Origin: Cytophagaceae bacterium
Lineage (GTDB): Bacteria > Bacteroidota > Bacteroidia > Flavobacteriales > Flavobacteriaceae
DNA length: 64,000 nt
Assembly: GCA_002710685.1 (NCBI GenBank)
Contig: PALD01000035.1
Coordinates: 1 to 64,000, forward strand
Direction: 5' to 3'
Position 1 is the stretch's first letter. The number at the start of each line of letters is the position of its first letter. Shown here one piece after another: positions 3,287 through 18,361 of this stretch. The notes under the pieces are model-generated. The model saw nothing but the letters and a program-made list of their open reading frames with translations, had not been told where the DNA came from and did not search any database. Position numbers and translations under genes: made by a program.

Positions 3287-3312
3287 ATCCCGAACATATC
3301 AATGCTCGGGAT
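3287..3312 (-). terminator. Original terminator of the tRNA-Gln transcription unit (left of attL)
   Basis: ATCCCGA (3287-3293) and TCGGGAT (3306-3312) form a hairpin followed, on the minus strand, by a long T run. It lies directly beyond the duplicated tRNA 3' end at 3321-3336. In the uninterrupted chromosome it would therefore have sat just downstream of the tRNA-Gln gene, and it was separated from it by insertion of the 9.4 kb element. The orphan position next to attL is the main argument. Confidence 0.7.
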
Positions 3313-3320
3313 CATTACCT

Positions 3321-3336
3321 TTGTTGGCCTACTAGG
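3321..3336. other. attL core: 16 bp duplicate of the tRNA-Gln 3' end
   Basis: TTGTTGGCCTACTAGG occurs here and at 12723-12738, where it forms the 3' end of tRNA-Gln (3' acceptor strand and the adjacent T-stem bases) plus three flanking bases. The match stops exactly at 3320/3337 versus 12722/12739. A partial tRNA copy lying ~130 bp from an integrase start codon is the classic left attachment site of a tRNA-integrated element. Confidence 0.88.
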
Positions 3337-3454
3337 ACAACGTATAACTTTTACTAAAATTATCTACACATCAGTAAACATAGCTATTATAGGCTTATAT
3401 CATTGAACTTATAGTTAAATAAAGTATCTCAAAGTATTGCTTAGTTAAGTTTTG

Positions 3455-3474
3455 GGCGGTACATTTGGCGGTAC
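3455..3474. repeat. Left arm-type pair of GGCGGTAC repeats
   Basis: GGCGGTAC occurs at 3455-3462 and 3467-3474, offset by 12 bp (about one helical turn), just before the integrase start. The same pair with the same offset occurs near the other end of the element at 12648-12655 and 12660-12667. Matching short direct repeats at both ends of a tyrosine-recombinase element are typical integrase arm-binding sites; the function here is inferred. Confidence 0.65.
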
Positions 3475-3485
3475 AATTTTATTTA

Positions 3486-4745
3486 ATGGCCTCAATTAGC
3501 TTAAAGCTTAGAAATTCAACAAAAGGAAATCCTAAAATCTACCTTCATTTTAACTATGGTCGTAAAAAGCAACTACGATATTCAACAGGTTATGAAGTTA
3601 CCTCTCAAAGCAACTGGGATGCTCTGAGGCAACGCGTAAAGAATGTAACATCAGAACCAAGGAGCCAATTTATAAATTCACAACTTTCAGAGCTCGTAAC
3701 ATTCTCTGAAAGATTACTTGATGACTTTGAGAGACAGAATCAGGTTATTTCTAATAGAATAGTAAAATCCAAACTTGATGAGTTTACCAAAAGAAAATCT
3801 GTCAAGAATAAAAAAAGCCTTTTGGAATTTTATGCATGGTTTATTGAATACTATTCACAAAATCCTCTCCCAAAGACTAAAAAGCCACTATCCCCCAATA
3901 CCGTAAGACCCTATAAGACCGCATTGCAAAAATTAAAGGAATTTTGCAATGCCTATTACAAAGTGGATTTTCAAGACATCACTTTAGGTTTTTACGATGA
4001 CTTTTTAAAACATCTCCAGGACAAAGGCTATTCCAACAACTATATAGGAAATCAAATAAAATTACTCAAGGCAATAATGAACTATGCCTACGAAAGAGAT
4101 CTACATAAGAATCTAGAATATAAAAAGAAAAATTTCTCAAAGCTTAGCGAGAATGTTGATGCCATTTATCTTACCGATAAAGAACTGGCCGCGATTCACG
4201 ATTTAAATTTAAAAGGATCCCTGCATAACAGAGCTCGTGATTTGTTTCTTATTGGGGCGTACACAGGATTACGTGTTTCAGATTTCAATAGACTAAAACC
4301 CGAAAACATTAAAAAGAATAATAAAGGTGATAAGTATATTGACATCACACCAAGAAAGACCGGCAAAACAGTTTTGATCCCGATAAAAAGGAAACTACAA
4401 GAGATATTCGACAAGTATGATGGAAAACCTCCAAAAGGAATGAGTGAGCAGCACATCAACAACGCCTTGAAGGAGATTGCCCAACTCGCTAAATTAAATT
4501 CCACTTTCACGATAGAAAAAACGGTAGGTGGAAAAAAGTTAAAAACGGAGTATAAGAAATGGGAACTGGTAACAAACCATACTGCAAGGCGTAGCTTTTG
4601 TACCAACGCTTATAAGGCTGGGCTTTCTACCATCGATATAATGGCCATTAGCGGTCATAAATCCGAAGCAGTATTTTTTAAATACATCAAAATAACTCCC
4701 AGTGAAAGACTGGAAAGATTAAAACAACACCCATTTTTCAACTAA
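3486..4745 (+). CDS. Tyrosine recombinase/integrase of the island
   Basis: This 419-residue site-specific recombinase should integrate and excise the surrounding element at tRNA-Gln. The N-terminus carries an arm-binding domain of the Bacteroidota phage-integrase type (KIYLHFNYGRKKQLRYSTGYE). It is followed by a SAM-like core-binding domain around residues 100-200 and the catalytic domain. Visible catalytic residues are R263 (TGLRVSD), the box II motif H365-xx-R368 (HTARR), H391 (SGHKS) and the nucleophile Y400 (FKYIK). The frame can also open at TTG 3465, but the ATG at 3486 gives the family-typical MASISLKLRN start and is preferred. The TTG lies inside the GGCGGTAC repeat pair, which suggests that integrase binding could repress its own gene. 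Confidence 0.93.
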   Translation: MASISLKLRNSTKGNPKIYLHFNYGRKKQLRYSTGYEVTSQSNWDALRQRVKNVTSEPRSQFINSQLSELVTFSERLLDDFERQNQVISNRIVKSKLDEFTKRKSVKNKKSLLEFYAWFIEYYSQNPLPKTKKPLSPNTVRPYKTALQKLKEFCNAYYKVDFQDITLGFYDDFLKHLQDKGYSNNYIGNQIKLLKAIMNYAYERDLHKNLEYKKKNFSKLSENVDAIYLTDKELAAIHDLNLKGSLHNRARDLFLIGAYTGLRVSDFNRLKPENIKKNNKGDKYIDITPRKTGKTVLIPIKRKLQEIFDKYDGKPPKGMSEQHINNALKEIAQLAKLNSTFTIEKTVGGKKLKTEYKKWELVTNHTARRSFCTNAYKAGLSTIDIMAISGHKSEAVFFKYIKITPSERLERLKQHPFFN

Positions 4746-4757
4746 AAGACATTTTTC

Positions 4758-5654
4758 ATGTTCAAAGGCATATTGAGTAAGGAAGAAATAATCATTACCA
4801 ATGAAAAAGAAAAGCGAAATTTCTATGAGCGTTTAATCTCATTGAATATTTACCACATTGTTAAAGAAATAAAACCATCTTACACTCCACCAGATGAAAA
4901 AGTCAAAAGAGAGGTAAAAGATATGTTATTTTCAAACTTGATTGTGTTTGATGAACATTACTACATAATATCTCATGATTTGTGCAATGAAATAATTGAT
5001 TTTGTGTATCCCATAATTAAAAGTCAAGCTCATGAAAAAGTTGAACAAGAATTTGAAAAAACTTCAATTGAATATGATTTTCATTCTGACCCCGCCTATA
5101 AGAGAAAAATGTTAGAAAAAGACTTCGTCTATTCTAGAGACAAAATAATGGATTCTGATCCTTTTGAGGATATATACAAATCAATGCTTTTTGACAATCT
5201 TTTCATTGCCAAAAGATTAAACAACTACAGAGATTTTAATGATAAGCTTACTCATCATCTTTTTGAAAAAGATAACGACGCATTAATCCAGAGTTATCTT
5301 ACTGGAGATGAGATTCCTTATACTGTTTTCTTCAAAAACATTTATGAATTCGAGTACAATTACTGTAAATGCAGTAAAATCCTGAAATACCTAGCGGAAA
5401 TAGACGACGAAAAAATAATTTCAGCCAACCGAAATGTTGTTGCTAGCAACACTTTATGGATTAAAACATTTGAAGAAATGGGGATATGGGAATTTTTAAG
5501 AGATAAAGGCTACACCAATTTATATCTATCAAAAATAATGGGTAAGCTCCTAGGAAGACATAATCAAAATATAAGAGATCTTTTAGGCAAGCCTAGTATA
5601 AAACTAAATAACTCCAACAAGCAGAAACTAAAGGATATCCTTTCTCCAGATTAA
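4758..5654 (+). CDS. Unrecognised island protein, 298 aa
   Basis: The gene begins 12 bp after the integrase stop, so it is probably cotranscribed. The protein is charged, rich in K, E, D and aromatic residues, predicted mostly helical, and has no signal peptide or membrane segment. Residues ~200-210 hold a small cysteine pair (YCKCSK). The C-terminal ~60 residues (TNLYLSKIMGKLLGRHNQNIRDLLGK) look like a helical DNA- or protein-binding tail. I recognise no family. Genes in this position of Bacteroidota islands often encode conserved hypothetical proteins of unknown role, so no function is assigned. Confidence 0.75.
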   Translation: MFKGILSKEEIIITNEKEKRNFYERLISLNIYHIVKEIKPSYTPPDEKVKREVKDMLFSNLIVFDEHYYIISHDLCNEIIDFVYPIIKSQAHEKVEQEFEKTSIEYDFHSDPAYKRKMLEKDFVYSRDKIMDSDPFEDIYKSMLFDNLFIAKRLNNYRDFNDKLTHHLFEKDNDALIQSYLTGDEIPYTVFFKNIYEFEYNYCKCSKILKYLAEIDDEKIISANRNVVASNTLWIKTFEEMGIWEFLRDKGYTNLYLSKIMGKLLGRHNQNIRDLLGKPSIKLNNSNKQKLKDILSPD

Positions 5655-5732
5655 AAATGTAGTGCCTTTTGTAGTACTACAAACAACTGTTAACCAAAAT
5701 ATTGAAATTAATATTGCTCAAAACATTTAGTC

Positions 5733-6017
5733 ATGAGCAAAAACATCACACAACTCCACAACATTTCCCCAGATGAATTCAAAGAAGACATCCTATCTGG
5801 TGTGAGAAAAGAACTTCTAAACTTTTCAAAAAAATTTCAACCCAAAACCGAATCCACCTGGTTAACCAGAAAAGATGTAAAAGAAGTTCTATCTATATCC
5901 TACCCTACTATTCATAAGTGGTGCCATAAAGGCATTTTGAAACCTTATAAAATCGGAAGACAAATACGTTTTAAAAGAGAAGAGATTTTAAAAGTACTCG
6001 AAGACTCATCTAAATAA
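5733..6017 (+). CDS. Excisionase-family helix-turn-helix protein
   Basis: This 94-residue protein has a winged HTH_17/MerR-like DNA-binding domain in its C-terminal half: LTRKDVKEVLSISYPTIHKW is followed by CHKGILKPYKIGRQIRFKR. That is the pattern of excisionases and AlpA/Xis-type regulators. The N-terminal ~40 residues look like a coiled or helical oligomerisation region. It lies between the integrase block and the replication block, where a recombination directionality factor or an island regulator is expected. The upstream 78 bp are AT-rich and could hold a promoter. Which of the two roles it has cannot be decided from sequence. Confidence 0.85.
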   Translation: MSKNITQLHNISPDEFKEDILSGVRKELLNFSKKFQPKTESTWLTRKDVKEVLSISYPTIHKWCHKGILKPYKIGRQIRFKREEILKVLEDSSK

Positions 6018-6022
6018 TCAAT

Positions 6023-6141
6023 GTGCAATACGCACCGTGTTGCTTATCAACAGGCTCATTAAACACACATTAACGTTGAAAATCAAGCCTTAGAGCAAGT
6101 AATAATCATTGCAACCTGCCCGTGTTGCAATCCGCAACACG
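6023..6141. promoter_or_regulatory. Palindromes with a common TGC-AATNC-GCA core before the DUF3987 gene
   Basis: GTGC-AATAC-GCAC lies at 6023-6035 and CGTGTTGC-AATCC-GCAACACG at 6121-6141. A related TTGC-AATAC-GCAA occurs inside the downstream primase gene at 7999-8011. All three have identical 5 bp spacers and a shared GC-core, so they look like binding sites of one dimeric protein. The HTH protein encoded just upstream is an obvious candidate. The second palindrome overlaps the possible GTG start at 6141. Confidence 0.5.
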
Positions 6142-6218
6142 TGGATTCAACACGTGTTAACACTATTGGAAAAGCCCCTGCTGTAACAGAGGCCGTATTC
6201 TCTTCTAACAAAAAGACA

Positions 6219-7565
6219 ATGAGTAAAAATAATGAATTTAAGCCTAATGATTATTCAAACATCACTCTAGATGATCTCAAAGAGGATTTTAAGAATAACA
6301 ACAACCCTTTTCCCATTGAAGTTTTTCCAACAGCTATACGGGATTTTATATTAAATGCGGAGGACACATTAAATTTTAATAGAGATTATTTTTCGGCATC
6401 CATTTTATCTGCATTAAGTCTTGCAATTGGCAACAGTTTCAGATTAAAAATTGATGAAGGATGGACCCCTAAATGTATTCTTTGGATTGCCCTTGTAGGG
6501 GATTCAGGAGACGGAAAAACTCCTCCTTTAAAAGAGGCCTTTTCCCCTATTGACAACAAGGAAAATGAACTCTATGAGCTTTATAAACAAGAATTAGAAA
6601 ACTTTAATCAAAATCAACAGGGATTAAAGGTACCTATAGCAAAAAGATATATAGTAAGGGATTTTACCATTGAAGCCCTTACTGAAAAATTAAGTCAAAA
6701 CCCTAAGGGAATAGGAATTTTAGCGGATGAACTTCTTGGTTGGGTAAAAAATATGGGGAAATATAACAACGGTTCAGATGTTGAGGCTTATTTAGAATTG
6801 TTTAATGGGGGTAAAATTACGGTCGATAGAGTTGGCAGAACAATAATTATTCAGGATGCTTTTGTGAATGTGATTGGCGGTATTCAACGCGACAAACTTC
6901 ATGAAGTTTTTAAAAAGGATTTTGACGCTAATGGATTTATTTTCCGAATACTTTGGGTTGACCCAGGGCAATTACCTTTCGTTCCTGAAAATGAAATGAA
7001 GCTCGATATAGAACATAAAAAAAACTATGAACGTTTCATCAATAAATTGTTTGAAGAAAGAGAAAATCCAAAAAATCGACATCTTATTTTATCTGCTGAA
7101 GCAAAAAAGCTAAGAAGACAATGGTGGAATGAGTTTGGTGAAAAACATCACTACGATGAACTTTACATTAAAGGAACCTACAGGAAAATCCGAGAATACT
7201 TCAATCGCTTCCTAGTAGTGTTTACCATTCTTGAATGTGTTGATTTTGAATTGCAACACGAGGCTACTAAAGACAAAGATAATCTTCAGGTTACTAAAGC
7301 CTCGGTTGAGAAGTCTATAACGTTAGCAGAATATTTCTTTAGAAATGCCATTGATGTTAGATCATATAAAAAGAATCCACTTGACGCAAAAGGCACAATC
7401 TATAAGAAATGGTATTTATCTCTTCCAAAAAAAACATTAGGCACTAACGACTTAATTCAATCTGGGGCAGCTGTAGAAATCAAACAAAGAACAGTAGAAA
7501 AATACATAAGAGAGGAAGAGTATTTTGAGAATACAGGCCATGGAAAATATAAAAGGAAACTATAG
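6219..7565 (+). CDS. DUF3987-type replicative helicase/primase-associated ATPase
   Basis: The protein is 448 residues from ATG 6219; the frame is also open from GTG 6141, which would add 26 residues. Around residues 97-108 it carries a Walker A-like GDSGDGKT, followed by PLKEAF, as in the DUF3987 family that is common in Bacteroidota mobile elements. A downstream ILADELLGWVKNMGKY segment resembles the Walker B/sensor part of that family (EL..W). The C-terminus has a small winged-helix-like tail. Such proteins pair with a zinc-finger primase, as here (7788-8849), and are thought to drive element replication. The start choice is uncertain because the upstream palindrome overlaps the GTG. Confidence 0.82.
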   Translation: MSKNNEFKPNDYSNITLDDLKEDFKNNNNPFPIEVFPTAIRDFILNAEDTLNFNRDYFSASILSALSLAIGNSFRLKIDEGWTPKCILWIALVGDSGDGKTPPLKEAFSPIDNKENELYELYKQELENFNQNQQGLKVPIAKRYIVRDFTIEALTEKLSQNPKGIGILADELLGWVKNMGKYNNGSDVEAYLELFNGGKITVDRVGRTIIIQDAFVNVIGGIQRDKLHEVFKKDFDANGFIFRILWVDPGQLPFVPENEMKLDIEHKKNYERFINKLFEERENPKNRHLILSAEAKKLRRQWWNEFGEKHHYDELYIKGTYRKIREYFNRFLVVFTILECVDFELQHEATKDKDNLQVTKASVEKSITLAEYFFRNAIDVRSYKKNPLDAKGTIYKKWYLSLPKKTLGTNDLIQSGAAVEIKQRTVEKYIREEEYFENTGHGKYKRKL

Positions 7566-7566
7566 T

Positions 7567-7790
7567 CGTGCGGTTCGTGCGGTTTATGCGGTTTCAATAT
7601 TATATAATTGATTAACAGTATTTTAAACCCATGTGAAACCGCACGCAAACCGCATAAACCGCATCCCGAATTATTCCCCTTTCAAATACCCCGTGCGGAA
7701 CGTGCGGTTTGCGTGCGGTTTCAAACAATAATATATAACTGATTTTCAATAATTTAAACATCAAACCGCATAAACCGCACGAACCGCATG
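7567..7790. repeat. Concentric palindromic array of GTGCGGTT iterons, candidate replication origin
   Basis: Twelve copies of GTGCGGTT-like octamers occur in four clusters of three: forward at 7568-7593, reverse at 7637-7664, forward at 7693-7720 and reverse at 7764-7789. The outer clusters are a perfect 26 bp inverted repeat (7569-7594 with 7763-7788). The inner clusters are a perfect 21 bp inverted repeat (7634-7654 with 7703-7723). Both share the centre 7678.5. The clusters flank AT-rich spacers (7595-7633 and 7724-7762) that are themselves similar direct copies. The array lies between the helicase and primase genes and its last copy covers the primase ATG, so an iteron origin with autoregulation is the natural reading. 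Confidence 0.8.
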
Positions 7791-8849
7791 GTACATAGAA
7801 GTATGAATATTCAGTTAGACAAATCATCCAATAAATTTCATTGCCCTGGGTGCGGTAAAAAAAGGTTTGTGAGATATGTTAATATAGATACTGGTGAATA
7901 TTTACATTCCAATTTTGGTAGATGTGACAGAGAAATAAACTGCGGTTACTTTCAACCCCCAAAGTCTGGAAAATACCATCAAAATCTGAATAGCCTTGTT
8001 GCAATACGCAATCTCACATCAAAGGCAAGCTTTATTCCTTTGAAAGCCGTAAACAATATTCTAGATACAGGTCTTAGAAGCAATCTATCCACTTTCTTTT
8101 CTAGCGTGTTGGGTTCAACATGCGCATTGCAACTCGTTAAAGAATATAATATAGGACTTTCAAATCACTGGAGTAACTCAACAATATTTTGGCAAATAGA
8201 TCAAGAGAACAATGTAAGAAGCGGAAAAATATTACTCTACAATCCCTCAACGGGAAAAAGGATTAAGAAACCTTACAACCATATCAACTGGTATCATAAA
8301 ACAGAAAAAATAGCAGAATTCAACTTACAACAATGCCTGTTTGGTCTTCATCTAATCAAAATGCATCCTCGAAAACCAATTGCAATTGTAGAAAGTGAAA
8401 AAACAGCCTGCATAATGAGTACTATAATGAAAGAATACAACTGGCTTGCAACAGGTGCTCTTTCCAATATCAAAACCGAATTATTCGTACCTATCTACGA
8501 GAAGAATATAACAATGTTCCCCGATGCTTCAATGCCTAACTCAAAAGGGATAACATGCTATTCATTATGGACGGAAAAAGCCAACAAATTAAGACATCAA
8601 GGTTTTCAAATAAGGGTGTCGAATCTCTTAGAAATTAAAGCTAATGAGGCTCAAAAAAAACAGGGTTTTGATATCGCAGATTTCTTTATTCCGCAGTTAA
8701 AAAATCATAAATTCTCTATAGCTCAAGATAATATTCCAAAACAAAAAATTAAATATCAAACTACTAATGAAAAAATTCTCAATAAAATGAGAACCATTAA
8801 TCCTGAAATTGAAACTCTAATCCAAACATTTGATTTAAATATAGATTGA
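7788..8849 (+). CDS. Zinc-finger primase-like protein (DUF6371/Toprim type)
   Basis: This 353-residue protein starts with a CHC2-like zinc ribbon (FHCPGCGKKRFVRY, then GRCDREINCGYF). A Toprim-like region follows around residues 195-290, with AIVESEKTA (the conserved acidic residue) and MFPDAS, as in DnaG-type and DUF6371 proteins of Bacteroidota mobile elements. It would synthesise or assist primers for replication from the adjacent iteron array. The ATG at 7788 lies inside the last iteron; an ATG at 7803 is an alternative start. The C-terminal 60 residues are lysine- and asparagine-rich. It probably works with the DUF3987 protein. Confidence 0.83.
   Translation: MVHRSMNIQLDKSSNKFHCPGCGKKRFVRYVNIDTGEYLHSNFGRCDREINCGYFQPPKSGKYHQNLNSLVAIRNLTSKASFIPLKAVNNILDTGLRSNLSTFFSSVLGSTCALQLVKEYNIGLSNHWSNSTIFWQIDQENNVRSGKILLYNPSTGKRIKKPYNHINWYHKTEKIAEFNLQQCLFGLHLIKMHPRKPIAIVESEKTACIMSTIMKEYNWLATGALSNIKTELFVPIYEKNITMFPDASMPNSKGITCYSLWTEKANKLRHQGFQIRVSNLLEIKANEAQKKQGFDIADFFIPQLKNHKFSIAQDNIPKQKIKYQTTNEKILNKMRTINPEIETLIQTFDLNID
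7999..8011. promoter_or_regulatory. TTGC-AATAC-GCAA palindrome inside the primase gene
   Basis: This is the third member of the TGC-N5-GCA family seen at 6023-6035 and 6121-6141, with the same AATAC spacer as the first. Its position within a coding sequence argues for a protein-binding role rather than a promoter part, but the short length leaves chance possible. Confidence 0.3.
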
Positions 8850-9022
8850 ACCCCTTCTAAATAGAGGGTATTAATAAATCAATTCACCCCAAATGGGGGT
8901 TATTCAAGTTCAATATCCGCGCAGATGTGCACGATTATTTCCCCACCATATGGTGGTTATTTAAGACCTGAACAGGCTCCATTTAGAGCCTATTCAAATT
9001 TTTATTATCTTAGCAATGCTAA
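8850..9022. repeat. Series of short hairpins each followed by TATTNAA
   Basis: After the primase stop come an ACCCC...GGGT hairpin (8850-8869), ACCCC/GGGGT (8886-8900), the palindrome CCACCATATGGTGG (8943-8956) and AGGCT/AGCCT (8974-8990). Each is followed directly by TATTAA, TATTCAAG, TATTTAAG and TATTCAAA respectively. A TTAGC-AAT-GCTAA hairpin ends the series (9010-9022). The repeated hairpin-plus-tail layout is not a usual terminator because T runs are lacking. It could be a set of protein sites, part of an origin, or an RNA. Confidence 0.45.
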
Positions 9023-9084
9023 AACATTCAGGACAACAGTCCAGATACATTTTATTTAAGATAGGAGTTTCCCACGGTGGCCGC

Positions 9085-9117
9085 ATTGCGAAGGCATTGT
9101 ACCGAAAGGTATGGCAA
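9085..9117 (+). promoter_or_regulatory. Hairpin with GAAA tetraloop in the leader of the small gene
   Basis: TACC-GAAA-GGTA forms a stem closed by a GNRA tetraloop, inside a longer ATTGC/GGCAAT stem. The 3' strand contains the ATG at 9111, so that start would be sequestered in mRNA. This favours translation from the ATG at 9180 or structural control of the first start. Confidence 0.4.
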
Positions 9118-9179
9118 TCCATTCTGTCCAAGAATGTTTTAGCACACCTAAAGGAAACTCTGTTTTAATTTTTAGGATT

Positions 9180-9437
9180 ATGCTAAATCAACAAAAATTT
9201 GACCCACAACACGCGGCATTGACGCCTGCACAGTATGAACTAATTGAATTTTGTCGTCACGTTGACATTCCAGACATCGTTCATGCCCTGGAGACAACAA
9301 TTAAACAGGCCGCTTTTTTCAACAGGGAAGACATTCAGCCAGAAATAGCTGAAAAATTCCTTACAACCGATTATTTACTGCAAGCTCTCAAGCGGATGGA
9401 AAAAGAAGGACCAAATCCAACGCTGGCCACAGTGTAG
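9180..9437 (+). CDS. Small island protein of unknown function, 85 aa
   Basis: The protein is 85 residues from ATG 9180; an in-frame ATG at 9111 would give 108 residues but lies in a hairpin. It is acidic and helical (TPAQYELIEFCRHVDIPDIV, then ALKRMEKEGPNP), with no membrane segment, signal or recognisable motif. The gene ends with an intrinsic terminator at 9449-9470. A decayed copy of its 3' half plus terminator lies at 9838-9991, so the unit has been duplicated in the element. I recognise no family. Its position between replication genes and RNA candidates gives no firm role. Confidence 0.6.
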   Translation: MLNQQKFDPQHAALTPAQYELIEFCRHVDIPDIVHALETTIKQAAFFNREDIQPEIAEKFLTTDYLLQALKRMEKEGPNPTLATV

Positions 9438-9448
9438 AAATGAGAAAG

Positions 9449-9470
9449 CCACCTTAACAGGTGGTTTTTT
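9449..9470 (+). terminator. Intrinsic terminator of the small island gene
   Basis: CCACCT-TAACA-AGGTGG-like stem (9449-9464) followed by six T. It lies 11 bp after the stop of the preceding gene and is repeated in weaker form at 9971-9991 behind the decayed copy. Confidence 0.85.
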
Positions 9471-9489
9471 ATTTTGCAAATGATTGAGT

Positions 9490-9497
9490 TATATTTG
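9490..9497 (+). promoter_or_regulatory. Promoter -7 box before the RNA array
   Basis: TATATTTG matches the Bacteroidota -7 consensus TAnnTTTG. A TTG exists at 9474-9476 but the 13 bp spacing is short of the usual ~19, so the -33 box is weak. Transcription would begin near 9504, directly before the first hairpin unit. Confidence 0.5.
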
Positions 9498-9503
9498 CAT
9501 AAC

Positions 9504-9567
9504 AAAAAAAACAGCTAGACATGTCGTAACGGTGTCGATTCGTCGCCCGGTCCGTTTAGCTGTTTTC
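9504..9567 (+). ncRNA. Structured RNA candidate, unit 1 of 3
   Basis: The outer stem ACAGCTAGAC (9511-9520) pairs with GTTTAGCTGT (9554-9563) over 10 bp and is followed by TTTT. It encloses the conserved core elements TAACGGTGTC (9527-9536) and GCCCGG (9545-9550). The same core occurs in units 2 and 3 with different outer stems that still pair. No open reading frame is associated. The unit resembles a small terminator-ended RNA; I know no family that fits. Confidence 0.6.
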
Positions 9568-9575
9568 TAATATTT

Positions 9576-9640
9576 AAGGCATTCAATACGATTTAACGGT
9601 GTCAATATACCATTGCCCGGCACTTTGGATGCCTTTTCTT
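9576..9640 (+). ncRNA. Structured RNA candidate, unit 2 of 3
   Basis: The outer stem AAGGCATTCAA (9576-9586) pairs with TTGGATGCCTT (9625-9635) over 11 bp and ends in TTTTCTTTT. The core is TTAACGGTGTC (9593-9603) and GCCCGG (9615-9620), with three extra bases between them compared with units 1 and 3. The stem sequence is unrelated to that of unit 1, yet pairing is kept. Confidence 0.6.
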
Positions 9641-9643
9641 TTC

Positions 9644-9704
9644 CAGCAATTCAGTACGACTTAACGGTATCCATTCGTCGCCCGGTACGCTGGGTTGCTT
9701 TTTT
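9644..9704 (+). ncRNA. Structured RNA candidate, unit 3 of 3
   Basis: The outer stem AGCAATTCAG (9645-9654) pairs with CTGGGTTGCT (9690-9699), 10 bp with G-T pairs, and is followed by a run of six T, the strongest terminator of the three. The core is TTAACGGTATCC (9661-9672) and GCCCGG (9680-9685). The inner sequence ATTCGTCGCCCGGT is identical to that of unit 1. Confidence 0.6.
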
Positions 9705-9718
9705 AATTAAATAAAATG

Positions 9719-9775
9719 CCCCTTCACACAAAGAATCGTTCACAAGGAACTATCTAGCAGCATGAAAAGGCCTGG
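9719..9775 (+). other. Diverged copy of the second RNA family (see 10705-10806)
   Basis: The stretch from caaagaatcg to gcatgaaaag aligns with 10721-10760 over about 40 bases at roughly three quarters identity, ending in the shared ATGAAAAG. The outer stem of the later copy is not evident here, so this looks like a decayed or partial member. Confidence 0.4.
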
Positions 9776-9837
9776 TGTAAATTTACAATTCTATTGAAGA
9801 ATACAGGTTTCTAAGTATAAATATTAGAAAGCTATTA

Positions 9838-9991
9838 TTTCAACAGGGAGAACATTCAGCCAGAAATAGCTGAAAAATTTCTTACAACTGATTATTTACT
9901 GTAAGCTCTCAAGCGGATGGAAAAAGAAGGATCAGATCCAGTACTGGCCACAGTGTAGAAATGAAAAAGTCACCTTAACAGGTGTTTTTTT
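9838..9991 (+). pseudogene. Decayed 3' copy of the small gene at 9180-9437 with its terminator
   Basis: The sequence from tttcaacaggga to the tag at 9956-9958 is nearly identical to the 3' part of the small gene. It has no start, carries a CAA-to-TAA change (ttactgtaagc against ttactgcaagc) and shows small shifts near its left end. The terminator is copied too (CACCTTAACAGGTG, 9971-9984, then T run). It is a remnant of a duplication that also involved the flanking RNA-like sequence. Confidence 0.8.
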
Positions 9992-10034
9992 GTGTATCAA
10001 ATATTATATTTTTCATTAATGTAATTTACTGAAT

Positions 10035-10676
10035 ATGTATGAGTTCTTAATAAGCTTAACTAGTGGTCTAATTGGTGCATTGATATTCTATCTTTTTGAA
10101 AGTTTTAGAAAAAAGAAAGAACGGATAGAAGGACATAAAAATCAAATTAGTGATTTTATTAATCTAGGAGCAAAAAAAATACCTGATGATATTCTAGAGC
10201 ATATAGATTTGGGGCATAACATGAAATACATAAATCAAATTTTAGGTGAACCTCAAAGATTTTATAAAATTCTGGCTAAAAAAAAGACTCACATTAACTT
10301 CTACGAATTTGATAATTGTATCATACAGATATTTCACAGAAAACAGGTAGTAAAAGCCATTATAATTCACCCTCTAGATAATGATTCGAAAATTAAAATT
10401 CCTTATTACAACACATATATTAACAGTTACAAGTTTAGGGATGTAATTTCAAATCAAGGAGAAAAATTCATTGATTTGAGTAGCGCACGAGATAACAATT
10501 TTGCGATTAAAGCTTATTATGGAAGATTAAGCGCATTTATTACATTTTATCATTATGGAGAACACTCTACTCCATTTAAGAAGAAACTTAGTTTTGAAGA
10601 AATAAAAAATGAAGTTGTAATAGGGTTTGGGATGTCTTATGATGATGAGATTCTAAAATTTTCACATTATCGATAG
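10035..10676 (+). CDS. Membrane-anchored island protein of unknown function
   Basis: This 213-residue protein has one N-terminal hydrophobic helix (residues ~3-22, EFLISLTSGLIGALIFYLF) followed by a basic stop-transfer stretch (ESFRKKKERIEGHK). The remaining ~180 residues would thus face the cytoplasm. The soluble part is a mixed alpha/beta domain with an NMKYINQILGEPQRFYK segment. Similar single-helix proteins with an ETS-like cytoplasmic domain occur in defence and cargo regions, but I do not recognise this one. A structured RNA candidate follows it at 10705-10806. Confidence 0.7.
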   Translation: MYEFLISLTSGLIGALIFYLFESFRKKKERIEGHKNQISDFINLGAKKIPDDILEHIDLGHNMKYINQILGEPQRFYKILAKKKTHINFYEFDNCIIQIFHRKQVVKAIIIHPLDNDSKIKIPYYNTYINSYKFRDVISNQGEKFIDLSSARDNNFAIKAYYGRLSAFITFYHYGEHSTPFKKKLSFEEIKNEVVIGFGMSYDDEILKFSHYR

Positions 10677-10704
10677 TAAACCGCCATTAATTTTTCTTTT
10701 AAAG

Positions 10705-10806
10705 GAAAAAGCCCGGCAACGAAAGATTCGCTTACTAGGAGCTTCATAGGAGTATGAAAAGATCTTTTACGAAGCTATATATTCTAAGCCGGTATTGGAC
10801 TTTTTC
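10705..10806 (+). ncRNA. Structured RNA candidate of a second family
   Basis: GAAAAAG (10705-10711) and CCGGC (10713-10717) pair with CTTTTTC (10800-10806) and GCCGG (10788-10792), enclosing ~70 nt. Inside, AGCTTC (10740-10745) pairs with GAAGCT (10771-10776), around a further AAAAGATCTTTT palindrome (10757-10768). A diverged copy of the core lies at 9719-9775. The 3' stem strand ends in CTTTTT, so the hairpin would terminate its own transcript. No promoter of consensus form was found. Confidence 0.5.
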
Positions 10807-11320
10807 ACTTTGAAATAATACATTTCACACTGTTTTCCACCCTTTAGGCAGTATTTTAGAAATCAATAAGCTCTAGAACAAATGGATGAAGTACTTCAAG
10901 TCTTTTGAAACATGGATGCTAAGTGTTCATGCACCATCTCCTCACTTCATTAAATACTTGGCCAGATATTTATGTAATAATATATCTTATTCCCTATTTC
11001 ATCAACGCGTTCAAAAGGCTGTAATTCGTAATGAAAATTACCACATTTAGAATCCTTGAATGCCATAAATAAAACTACTTTATTAAGGGATTCATTTCTT
11101 ACAGAAAAATATTCTTCACGCTTTTGTGGCTAAGTTAATTTAGCTAAAAGGATTTGAAATGAATCTCGATAACATATGATTTTAACAAGCTTCAACCGAC
11201 AAGCGATGTAAGAAAAAGCCTCATTCATTAATCTTATTAAACCTAAATTAACTCATTATAGTTAATATATTGTGAATTTTATCGAATATTTACGCATTTC
11301 GTCATTTCAAGTGGTTTTAA
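10807..11320. other. AT-rich stretch without a recognisable gene
   Basis: All frames are broken by frequent stops on both strands and no homology-like segment stands out. It may be decayed cargo. The only structure noted is a promoter-like box at its right end, listed separately. Confidence 0.5.
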
Positions 11321-11324
11321 AACG

Positions 11325-11395
11325 TATATTTGCACTATCTCAATGACCATGTGTTAGAAGAGGAACGAAACCGTCTAATTTATTAGGCGGTTTTT
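11325..11395 (+). ncRNA. Short promoter-to-terminator unit, possible small RNA
   Basis: TATATTTG (11325-11332) fits the -7 promoter consensus, though no good TTG lies at -33. About 40 bp later AACCGTCTAAT-TT-ATTAGGCGGTT (11369-11391) forms an 11 bp hairpin followed by T residues. A transcript of ~58 nt would result. Its 3' end is antisense to the last codons of the convergent gene (stop at 11383-11385). It could be a small RNA, or the remains of a leader whose gene was lost. Confidence 0.45.
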
Positions 11396-11868
11396 GCATT
11401 TATATATTCTTCATATTCCTTTATTAATTTTCTCCTTTTGTGATTTGTTGTAACTATATATGCAGTCCAAGGTAAAATATATTTCCCCCTATCATCCAAT
11501 ACAACTAAGTAGTCTTCGGCTTCATAAAAGAGAAGTATTCTTGTCTTGTTTCCTCTTCGGTTGCGCCATACTTTCAGTTCATTATTTTCAGAATTGTCGA
11601 TAATAGGTCGTGGAAATCCAATCATTTCAATCCTTCTCATATTAGGGATTCTGTTATTCTCATCGTTGCCCTCGTGAGTTAAATGGTAGAATGTACATTC
11701 TTTATTAAAATGAAGCGGATATCTTTTAAGACCAAGCCTTACACCTCTATAAATTGGTTTAGAGACGACGAAATCATTTCTGAAAATAGCATACGCCGCA
11801 TCTAAATATGTTGAAAAATCACCTTTGTAGTCATCTAGATATATTCTATCCGGTAAATATTCTTCCAT
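11383..11868 (-). CDS. Unknown cargo protein paired with a DUF3800 protein
   Basis: This is a 161-residue protein starting 3 bp after the stop of the DUF3800 gene, so the two form an operon. The C-terminal third (RILLFYEAEDYLVVLDDRGK, then ILPWTAYIVTTNHKRRKLIK) resembles the closing strand-helix pattern of BECR-fold nucleases of the PBECR/RelE type, but this is a faint motif-level impression. The N-terminus (DRIYLDDYKGDFSTYLDAAY, then IFRNDFV) has no match I know. A toxin-like or effector role beside DUF3800 is possible. The function is otherwise unassigned. Confidence 0.6.
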   Translation of the reverse strand: MEEYLPDRIYLDDYKGDFSTYLDAAYAIFRNDFVVSKPIYRGVRLGLKRYPLHFNKECTFYHLTHEGNDENNRIPNMRRIEMIGFPRPIIDNSENNELKVWRNRRGNKTRILLFYEAEDYLVVLDDRGKYILPWTAYIVTTNHKRRKLIKEYEEYINAKTA

Positions 11869-11871
11869 GTT

Positions 11872-12570
11872 TTATTCTTGTGGTTTCCAAATAAAAATAT
11901 TTGTTTTATCCTCTTTATACAGGGTAGTTTGCATTAGGCTATATCCCGATCTTTCTTGAATTCTTCGAATTAAATCCATTTTACCTTTATTCGTATTAAA
12001 TCCTCTATGCAAATAACCTATAGCTCCAATAAGCAAATCTACTACCGGCAGCTGTTCTACTTCATCTGATCGTATTTGTTGGACCTTTTTTATCATTTTC
12101 TTCCTGAAATCATAATGATTGTTTCTTAAAATCTCACATAACTTGTCCACTTTATCTTGGCTTCTTGTATCCTTAATATCTATATAAACATTGTATGAAT
12201 CCCCTGGAACTAGAATTACTTTCAATAAATCAAAATACATTTTATAATAAAAATCATCATGGGTTTGATTAAATCTATCATGATCTAATTTTTTCTTATC
12301 CTTCACTATGATACATCGAAAATGTAAATCATCATCATCAAAAAAATAATCAACAATATTCATATAGAATTCAACTTTGCTAGCGGAAACTTTATTCCAT
12401 TTAATTTCAAAGCTTGGCTTTAGGCCATGCCTAACTTTTATTTCCCTTATTCTCTTGGAGATTTCTTTTACCTTATCTTTTTTACACCATAAGGCCCCCA
12501 TAATCATTATATCACTATCATCATTTTTTAAATGACAGGATTCATCACAATAGACGTTATATTCAATCAT
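11872..12570 (-). CDS. DUF3800 domain protein
   Basis: This 232-residue protein opens with YCDESCHLKNDDSD, the signature of DUF3800, an RNase H-like fold family found in phages, islands and defence neighbourhoods. Acidic residues in the positions expected for metal binding are D9 and E10, D149-151 (YIDIKDTR) and D178 (PVVDLLIGAIGY). It is the first gene of a two-gene operon at the right end of the element, reading inward from attR. DUF3800 proteins have been proposed as nucleases, but their substrates are not established. Confidence 0.85.
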   Translation of the reverse strand: MIEYNVYCDESCHLKNDDSDIMIMGALWCKKDKVKEISKRIREIKVRHGLKPSFEIKWNKVSASKVEFYMNIVDYFFDDDDLHFRCIIVKDKKKLDHDRFNQTHDDFYYKMYFDLLKVILVPGDSYNVYIDIKDTRSQDKVDKLCEILRNNHYDFRKKMIKKVQQIRSDEVEQLPVVDLLIGAIGYLHRGFNTNKGKMDLIRRIQERSGYSLMQTTLYKEDKTNIFIWKPQE

Positions 12571-12647
12571 GGTTTAAATATTTAAGAGTGTAAGTATAAA
12601 TGATATTATTCAAAAATTTTCAATTCAGAACTATAGAATCATTACTG

Positions 12648-12667
12648 GGCGGTACAATCGGCGGTAC
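12648..12667. repeat. Right arm-type pair of GGCGGTAC repeats
   Basis: GGCGGTAC occurs at 12648-12655 and 12660-12667, with the same 12 bp offset and a 4 bp spacer as at 3455-3474. It lies ~55 bp inside attR. Confidence 0.65.
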
Positions 12668-12674
12668 TTAGTCA

Positions 12675-12718
12675 AATAAAAAAACCGCAACATGCTATAT
12701 ATAAGCTTGTTGCGGTTT
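12675..12718 (-). terminator. Element-supplied terminator of tRNA-Gln
   Basis: AAACCGCAAC (12682-12691) pairs with GTTGCGGTTT (12709-12718), followed on the minus strand by a T-rich run. It lies 8 bp beyond the tRNA 3' end and inside the element, so it replaces the chromosomal terminator now stranded at 3287-3312. Confidence 0.8.
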
Positions 12719-12722
12719 AAAC

Positions 12723-12738
12723 TTGTTGGCCTACTAGG
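12723..12738. other. attR core within the tRNA-Gln 3' end
   Basis: Second copy of the 16 bp direct repeat. On the minus strand it contains the 3' acceptor strand, the discriminator base and the last T-stem bases, so insertion keeps the tRNA intact. Confidence 0.88.
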
Positions 12739-12798
12739 GCTCGAACCTAGACTCTTCTGAACCAAAATCAGACGTGTTGCCAGTTACACCATAGGCCA
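12726..12798 (-). tRNA. tRNA-Gln (anticodon TTG)
   Basis: The 73 nt fold into a full cloverleaf: acceptor TGGCCTA/TAGGCCA, D-stem GTGT/ACAC, anticodon stem TCTGA/TCAGA around the loop TTTTGGT (anticodon TTG), and T-arm CTAGG-TTCGAGC-CCTAG. CCA is not encoded. It is the integration target of the 9.4 kb element. A consensus promoter lies upstream at 12839-12869. Confidence 0.96.
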
Positions 12799-12838
12799 AT
12801 ATTTCAAAAACAGGCGCCGTGTCCTGCAAAGGCGGGTG

Positions 12839-18279: not shown

Positions 18280-18361
18280 CACGCTCATTAAAAGAAGCCC
18301 ATGATTATTATGGGCTGCAATAAATTATAATCGGGGTCGGGTACCCCAAAAATTAATTTTT

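Follow-up and report, generated by a model that had tools for sequence, protein, structure and literature searches.

LhrC1-5 and other multicopy sibling small RNAs exist as several homologous copies that share a functional segment. Integron attC sites are imperfect hairpins of variable sequence with RYYYAAC and GTTRRRY boxes as outer arms. Multicopy small RNAs of the structured or seed type are already known in the Bacteroidota as well: FopS is a paralogous small RNA family of Bacteroides with 14 members of ~65-70 nt, which are classed as intergenic, antisense or derived from 3' UTRs, and which carry a single-stranded 5' seed before a terminator hairpin at the end (PMC11697453).

The window (the whole stretch of 64,000 nucleotides of Flavobacteriaceae DNA analysed here) contains an array of three hairpin units (Table 1) that resembles each of these systems in part. 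Like FopS and GibS (PMC11697453), the units would be short paralogous RNAs of the Bacteroidota that end in a terminator hairpin; they differ from this known kind in that they are adjacent in tandem, that their predicted 5' end is already the start of the stem, and that what is conserved lies within the hairpin. The homologous copies are reminiscent of LhrC1-5, but sequence, phylum and layout are different. What the array shares with sibling small RNAs in general is a set of paralogous copies with a conserved segment (identity of 23-27/33 in the core, 3-8/11 in the arms). Tandem structured repeats, three in this case, and a possible pseudoknot also recall the type III toxin-antitoxin RNAs ToxI and CptI; however, each unit ends in its own T run and has a long, variable clamp stem, and no recognised toxin follows. 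Finally, the hairpins are imperfect and variable in sequence like attC sites, whereas their conserved part is central and no cassette separates the units. By eye, the three units do not all have a GTTRRRY/RYYYAAC pair in register: GTTTAGC in unit 1 deviates by one mismatch, and units 2 and 3 carry TTTGGAT and GCTGGGT.

The reading that we favour, at about even confidence and on sequence grounds, is that the array is a cargo gene for three paralogous, structured "sibling" small RNAs, each ended by a T run and each presenting a conserved apical recognition domain. If transcribed, it would represent a structured RNA not described before, on a small mobile element whose further cargo includes a candidate phage-defence pair. 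With their changed stems, the three copies amount to a natural experiment, suggesting that the core matters and the stem sequence less so, and their compensatory record provides a ready test of the structure.

Table 1. Positions of the array, its promoter box, its flanks and the element that carries them.
Feature	Position	Strand	Description
Unit 1	9504-9567	+	Stem AAAACAGCTAGAC/GTTTAGCTGTTTT flanking the conserved core, then TTTT
Unit 2	9576-9640	+	Stem AAGGCATTCAA/TTGGATGCCTT flanking the core (core 3 bases longer), then TTTTCTTTT
Unit 3	9644-9704	+	Stem AGCAATTCAGT/GCTGGGTTGCT flanking the core, then TTTTTT
TAnnTTTG -7 promoter box TATATTTG	9490-9497	+	Sequence match; predicted start ~9502
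Left repeated flank	9314-9481	+	168 nt, 3' end of the 85-aa ORF and terminator-like repeat; second copy at 9835-10002, 89%
Right repeated flank X1	9699-9769	+	Overlaps the last T run; resembles X2 (10691-10761), after the 213-aa gene
213-aa protein gene	10035-10676		Predicted N-terminal helix (weak model)
Integrative element (putative ends)	3321-12738		16-bp direct repeat TTGTTGGCCTACTAGG at 3321 and 12723

Structure of the Array

Re-examination of the sequence returned the units, their common core (TAACGGTRTC, then GCCCGG) and the start-to-start distances of 67 and 68 exactly as given in a first-pass annotation of this DNA, and also the T run claimed after each unit: every stem runs straight into one on the plus strand. 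The array has 44% G+C inside an element of 33% G+C. Among the listed ORFs of at least 40 aa, the sole overlap with it is a 44-aa ORF on the minus strand, by its last two bases (9504-9505).

The outer stems had been annotated as pairing over 10-11 bp. They comprise 11-13 bp per unit in a single register, column i of the three-unit alignment pairing with column 63-i in 3/3 units, but the innermost of the 11 pairs in unit 2 (columns 13/50) is T-T. In this alignment, 97.1% of the outer-stem cells are paired and 7 of the 12 outer pairs have changed on both sides; for the whole tested structure of 18 pairs, 96.2% of the cells are paired and 8 pairs show both-sided change. None of 500 shuffles matched either the pairing or the both-sided-change value and 4/500 matched the number of pair types, counts that are not probabilities for three related sequences, which can exceed such shuffles. 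Sliding the registers against each other left at most 52.8% of the cells paired, and RNAalifold found the same clamp in the same alignment. When the 5' arm of one unit is paired with the 3' arm of another, only 5-9 of 11 pairs form, compared to 10-11 of 11 with its own arm, which implies that the arms of each unit have changed together.

The same annotation described the stems as completely different, which does not hold for units 2 and 3 (8/11 identical bases in the 5' arm, 6/11 in the 3' arm); the corresponding values are 3/11 and 3/11 for units 1 and 2, and 4/11 and 6/11 for units 1 and 3. Core identity amounts to 27/33 letters for units 1 and 3, 23/33 for units 1 and 2, and 26/33 for units 2 and 3. 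Thus, the core is better conserved than the arms in every pair of units. Since much of the stem is common to units 2 and 3, and most of the core to units 1 and 3, unit 3 links the other two, and the array consists of diverged tandem duplicates. The argument from compensatory change to a selected structure is supported by the three paralogous copies, their pairing in the same register and the RNAalifold clamp. That the units are neutral, decaying duplicates of a single hairpin is very hard to credit: their confinement to one genome, with no relatives in the searched genome samples, would suit such decay, but neither the 8 pairs that changed on both sides and still pair nor the 0/500 shuffles that do as well would be expected.

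The clustering is itself unusual. A stem detector (stem of at least 10 pairs, loop of 26-50, T run) gave three matches on the plus strand of positions 3301-12800, all of them these units, and one on the minus strand, which is the mirror of unit 1. In nine comparison loci (141,219 bases, both strands) it gave 17 matches, the nearest two ~700 bases apart. The cluster of hairpins therefore exceeds chance expectation.

Strand, Promoter and Inner Fold

Compared to shuffled sequences, the plus-strand RNA of unit 1 folds strongly (z -4.48), that of unit 2 moderately well (-2.87) and that of unit 3 weakly (-1.45; 17/200 shuffles fold as well), while the opposite strand gives z values of -3.30, -1.83 and -3.61. 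Unit 3 thus folds better on the minus strand and units 1 and 2 on the plus strand, so that the energies alone do not choose between strands. The stem of unit 3 also has a competitor, a small terminator-like hairpin at 9680-9695 that is followed by a T run and uses parts of the core and the 3' arm. Read on the plus strand, five of the outer-stem pairs (columns 2-13 with 50-61) are G-U, distributed as 1, 1 and 3 over the units, one is T-T and none is A-C. Selection on a DNA hairpin or on the minus strand would make G-U and A-C about equally frequent, so that the observed split is a one-sided 1/32 on five cases. Together with the T runs and the -7 box on the plus strand, this favours plus-strand RNA as the folded molecule.

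This evidence bears on the idea that the units act as single-stranded DNA hairpins of the element, be it as priming or replication-origin sites for the DUF6371/zinc-ribbon protein, whose function we take to be primase-like, or as recombination sites. The array lies ~650 bp downstream of the DUF6371 gene, and as DNA, units 1 and 2 fold better than shuffles on the plus strand (z -3.43 and -2.46), as does unit 1 on the minus strand (z -3.20). However, unit 3 lacks a clear DNA fold (z -0.29 and -1.38), the bias towards G-U over A-C points to RNA, and no such array was found in eight stretches of 9.8-16.5 kb around DUF6371 relatives, taken from seven other genomes. We consider a role as DNA hairpins distinctly unlikely.

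The TAnnTTTG box is located at -12 to -5 in Flavobacterium psychrophilum (PMC9723704), which would put the start two bases before unit 1. On the plus strand of 3321-12740 this motif occurs five times, including the box at the array; the promoter box of the first-pass annotation stands before the array as a whole and not before each unit. By eye, no TTG is seen at its usual spacing upstream of the -7 box, and there is no good -33 element, so that the promoter is only partly matched. A scan with an E. coli-type promoter model lists nothing at the array start.

Inside the clamp, two folds have about the same support, and either of them leaves a single pair broken in one unit: a nested hairpin (96.2% of cells paired, covariation score 0.648), and a helix of columns 15-18/38-41 combined with a pseudoknot of columns 23-25/43-45 (96.4% paired, covariation score 0.719).

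Proposed Sibling RNAs versus Tandem Terminators

In the proposed mechanism, the array would be a cargo gene of a small integrative element and would have arisen by tandem duplication. Transcription would start near 9502, and leaky termination at each T run would give rise to RNAs of ~65, 140 and 200 nt. The outer 11-13 bp stem of each unit would serve as clamp and terminator, its sequence hardly mattering, while the apical domain (TAACGGTRTC...GCCCGG, with a possible small pseudoknot) would be the part that recognises a partner, which might be a protein or a target RNA; three copies would raise the dosage. The structural part of this reading comes close to being shown, while we infer transcription, strand, nested ends, partner and purpose. 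Counting against it, all three sequences stem from one genome, and a single promoter box would have to serve three units. As to antisense targets within the element, with the array itself excluded, even the best duplexes did not exceed in energy what shuffled cores reach on average (20 mononucleotide shuffles for each unit and strand).

Alternatively, the units could be tandem intrinsic terminators that form a transcription barrier, in which case the core would owe its likeness to common descent and have no role of its own. All three stems are stable and lead into a T run, that of unit 1 is in addition preceded by an A run, unit 3 contains the compact terminator-like hairpin at 9680-9695, and terminator-like sites abound in the region 8850-10830, with 8 found against 1.2 expected. 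However, loops of 33-38 nt are large for terminators, and conservation is higher in the core than in the stem. Moreover, an inverted repeat with TTTTTTATTTT after it (9449-9475; the terminator scan lists this repeat on the minus strand only) already stands at the end of the 85-aa ORF upstream, so that three more terminators would be redundant. We regard a pure terminator function as unlikely.

Search for Relatives

In Rfam 15, searched at the gathering cut-offs of its families, the array matches no family. Permissive searches were added for two regions: 9400-9800 gave 14 matches, the best being RNAI on the minus strand at 9440-9574, over unit 1 (21.6 bits where 47 are required, E 0.077), and 9500-9710 gave 4 matches, the best with 16.3 bits against a cut-off of 80. 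The annotation knew of no RNA family with this core, and the Rfam searches, with sub-threshold matches only, agree with it.

A covariance model of the three units retrieved only the three units of the own genome from 60 relatives (E 0.1), 395 genomes of the phylum (E 0.01) and 289 genomes of the family (E 0.1), samples that overlap and each include the own genome. Scoring used strict filters in all three, at the cost of weak matches, and in the two larger samples it covered, among the entries listed, no more than 14 and 19 candidates from any one genome. At E up to 10, the model found no match in the eight stretches around DUF6371 relatives or in a stretch of G009, a genome of the same genus, and the stem detector found no clustered hairpins in any of them. 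The first-pass annotation was to be given up if there were neither transcripts nor conservation in related islands; the latter half of this applies, as no relative was found in the nine related stretches examined.

The exact core pattern occurs in 1 of 149 relatives, which is the own genome, and in at least 118 stretches of public genome contigs and 116 stretches of viral contigs. With matches within 30 bases of a locus end left out, at least 237 were kept, of which 9 show the three window units over again and 228 come from other places, near-identical records among them. As candidate relatives these were rejected: among the matches listed, the flanking stem has at most 9 pairs, compared to 11-13 in the window, and they are therefore read as chance. 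Two looser viral patterns matched 5 and 1 stretches, none of them with the structure (best model score 10.6 bits, E 5.8). BLASTN of the array with an E limit of 10 yielded short matches throughout, in 6 phage records (best E 0.8) and 5 plasmid records (best E 3). A DNA search of 149 relatives with the same limit gave, among the matches listed, only short ones outside the own genome (best E 6.5e-4 over 26 bases). As none of the Rfam, covariance-model, pattern, and viral, phage or plasmid searches brought up a convincing match, the array is an orphan at present; a literature search of partial coverage found no description of such an array.

The Host Element and Its Cargo

The integrative element spans 9.4 kb with 33% G+C beside a chromosome stretch of 46% G+C, and its second direct repeat lies at the 3' end of a tRNA-Gln. 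Further along in the window, an S16-Flavobacteria leader placed by Rfam at 18324 points to a host from the Flavobacteriia. It encodes a tyrosine integrase and HTH_17, DUF3987 and DUF6371 proteins, and two minus-strand genes at 11383-12570 match the PADLOC candidate defence models PDC-M04B (E 1.5e-64) and PDC-M04A (E 1.6e-95). The DUF6371 protein (353 aa) has relatives in 8/90 genomes, own included, and none in viral contigs.

The array is bordered by repeated flanks. Within the element, X1 and X2 align over 71 nt with 67.6% identity (search E 1.2e-6); at an E limit of 0.01, X2 has a single occurrence in the own genome. Since like flanks surround the array and the 213-aa gene, the two fill corresponding positions and may be interchangeable cargo. 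The 213-aa protein scores just under the cut-off for the ETEC_3214 domain (33.7 bits against 35); its gene is confined to the own genome among 249 family genomes (E 1e-5, the 248 others without a match) and has no relatives in viral contigs.

The ORF upstream of the array is listed with 108 aa and counts 85 aa when read from the start that is conserved in G009. It is present in 2/299 family genomes, own included, and was not found in plasmids; two viral loci were dismissed as relatives, their match covering 17 residues only and being taken as chance. G009 also carries the 85-aa gene and part of its leader, in a different context, where the gene is followed by a 161-aa ORF and a PemK/MazF-type toxin gene. 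Judged from its ORFs, this context may be phage-like; PHROGs gave only families of unknown function and one MazF-like family on the stretch.

The G009 arrangement is one of the points in favour of a type III-kind RNA antitoxin, or of an RNA partner for a cargo protein such as the 213-aa protein or the PDC-M04 pair. Tandem structured repeats, the possible pseudoknot and the accessory cargo nearby, including the candidate defence pair, would also fit. However, family matching found no ToxN/AbiQ/CptN/TenpN-like toxin gene directly downstream of the array, the next gene being 330 bp away, past a further terminator-like site (9971-9984), and the PDC-M04 pair is on the other strand. Neither the 213-aa nor the 85-aa protein has a family match above cut-off, in libraries that may miss some type III toxins, and their structure models (mean pLDDT 45.6 and 63.5, respectively) are too weak for fold comparison. 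An antitoxin or partner RNA thus appears improbable. We give similarly little credence to a bolder version of the sibling-RNA reading, in which the array would stand for a novel class of clamp-stem pseudoknot RNAs carried as cargo by satellite-like elements of the Bacteroidota: its apical domain might be a decoy or ligand for a phage or host factor, and an RNA-only accessory gene for defence, immunity or antitoxin function might be swapped as a cassette between the repeated flanks.

Several other features of the locus were observed. The leader of the 85-aa ORF (window 9005-9180; L250 1365-1560), with hairpins and GAAA/GAAG loops, looks like a complex structured RNA. It is found in 2/299 family genomes, own included. 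G009 retains part of it, with 80% over 119 nt (window 9076-9194), and there its long-range helix GAGTTTCC/GGAAACTC has, by eye, the counterpart GAAGCAGCC/GGTTGCTTC. Its match to Rfam c4-2, a family that is presumably related to the phage C4 antisense immunity RNA, is sub-threshold (16.2 bits against 41, E 0.99), and the G009 copy does not match c4-2 up to E 2. In phages, all matches to the leader were short (best E 0.6), and scanning viral sequences for its pattern yielded 0 stretches.

Both ends of the element have two copies of GGCGGTAC nearby, spaced by 12 bases (3455 and 3467, 12648 and 12660); the window has 9 matches to it, where 0.6 are expected, and 4 of these are the paired end sites, which are perhaps integrase arm sites. 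Between the DUF3987 and DUF6371 genes lies an inverted repeat (7569-7788; 95 nt, 76% complementary) with CAAACCGCATAAACCGCA repeats.
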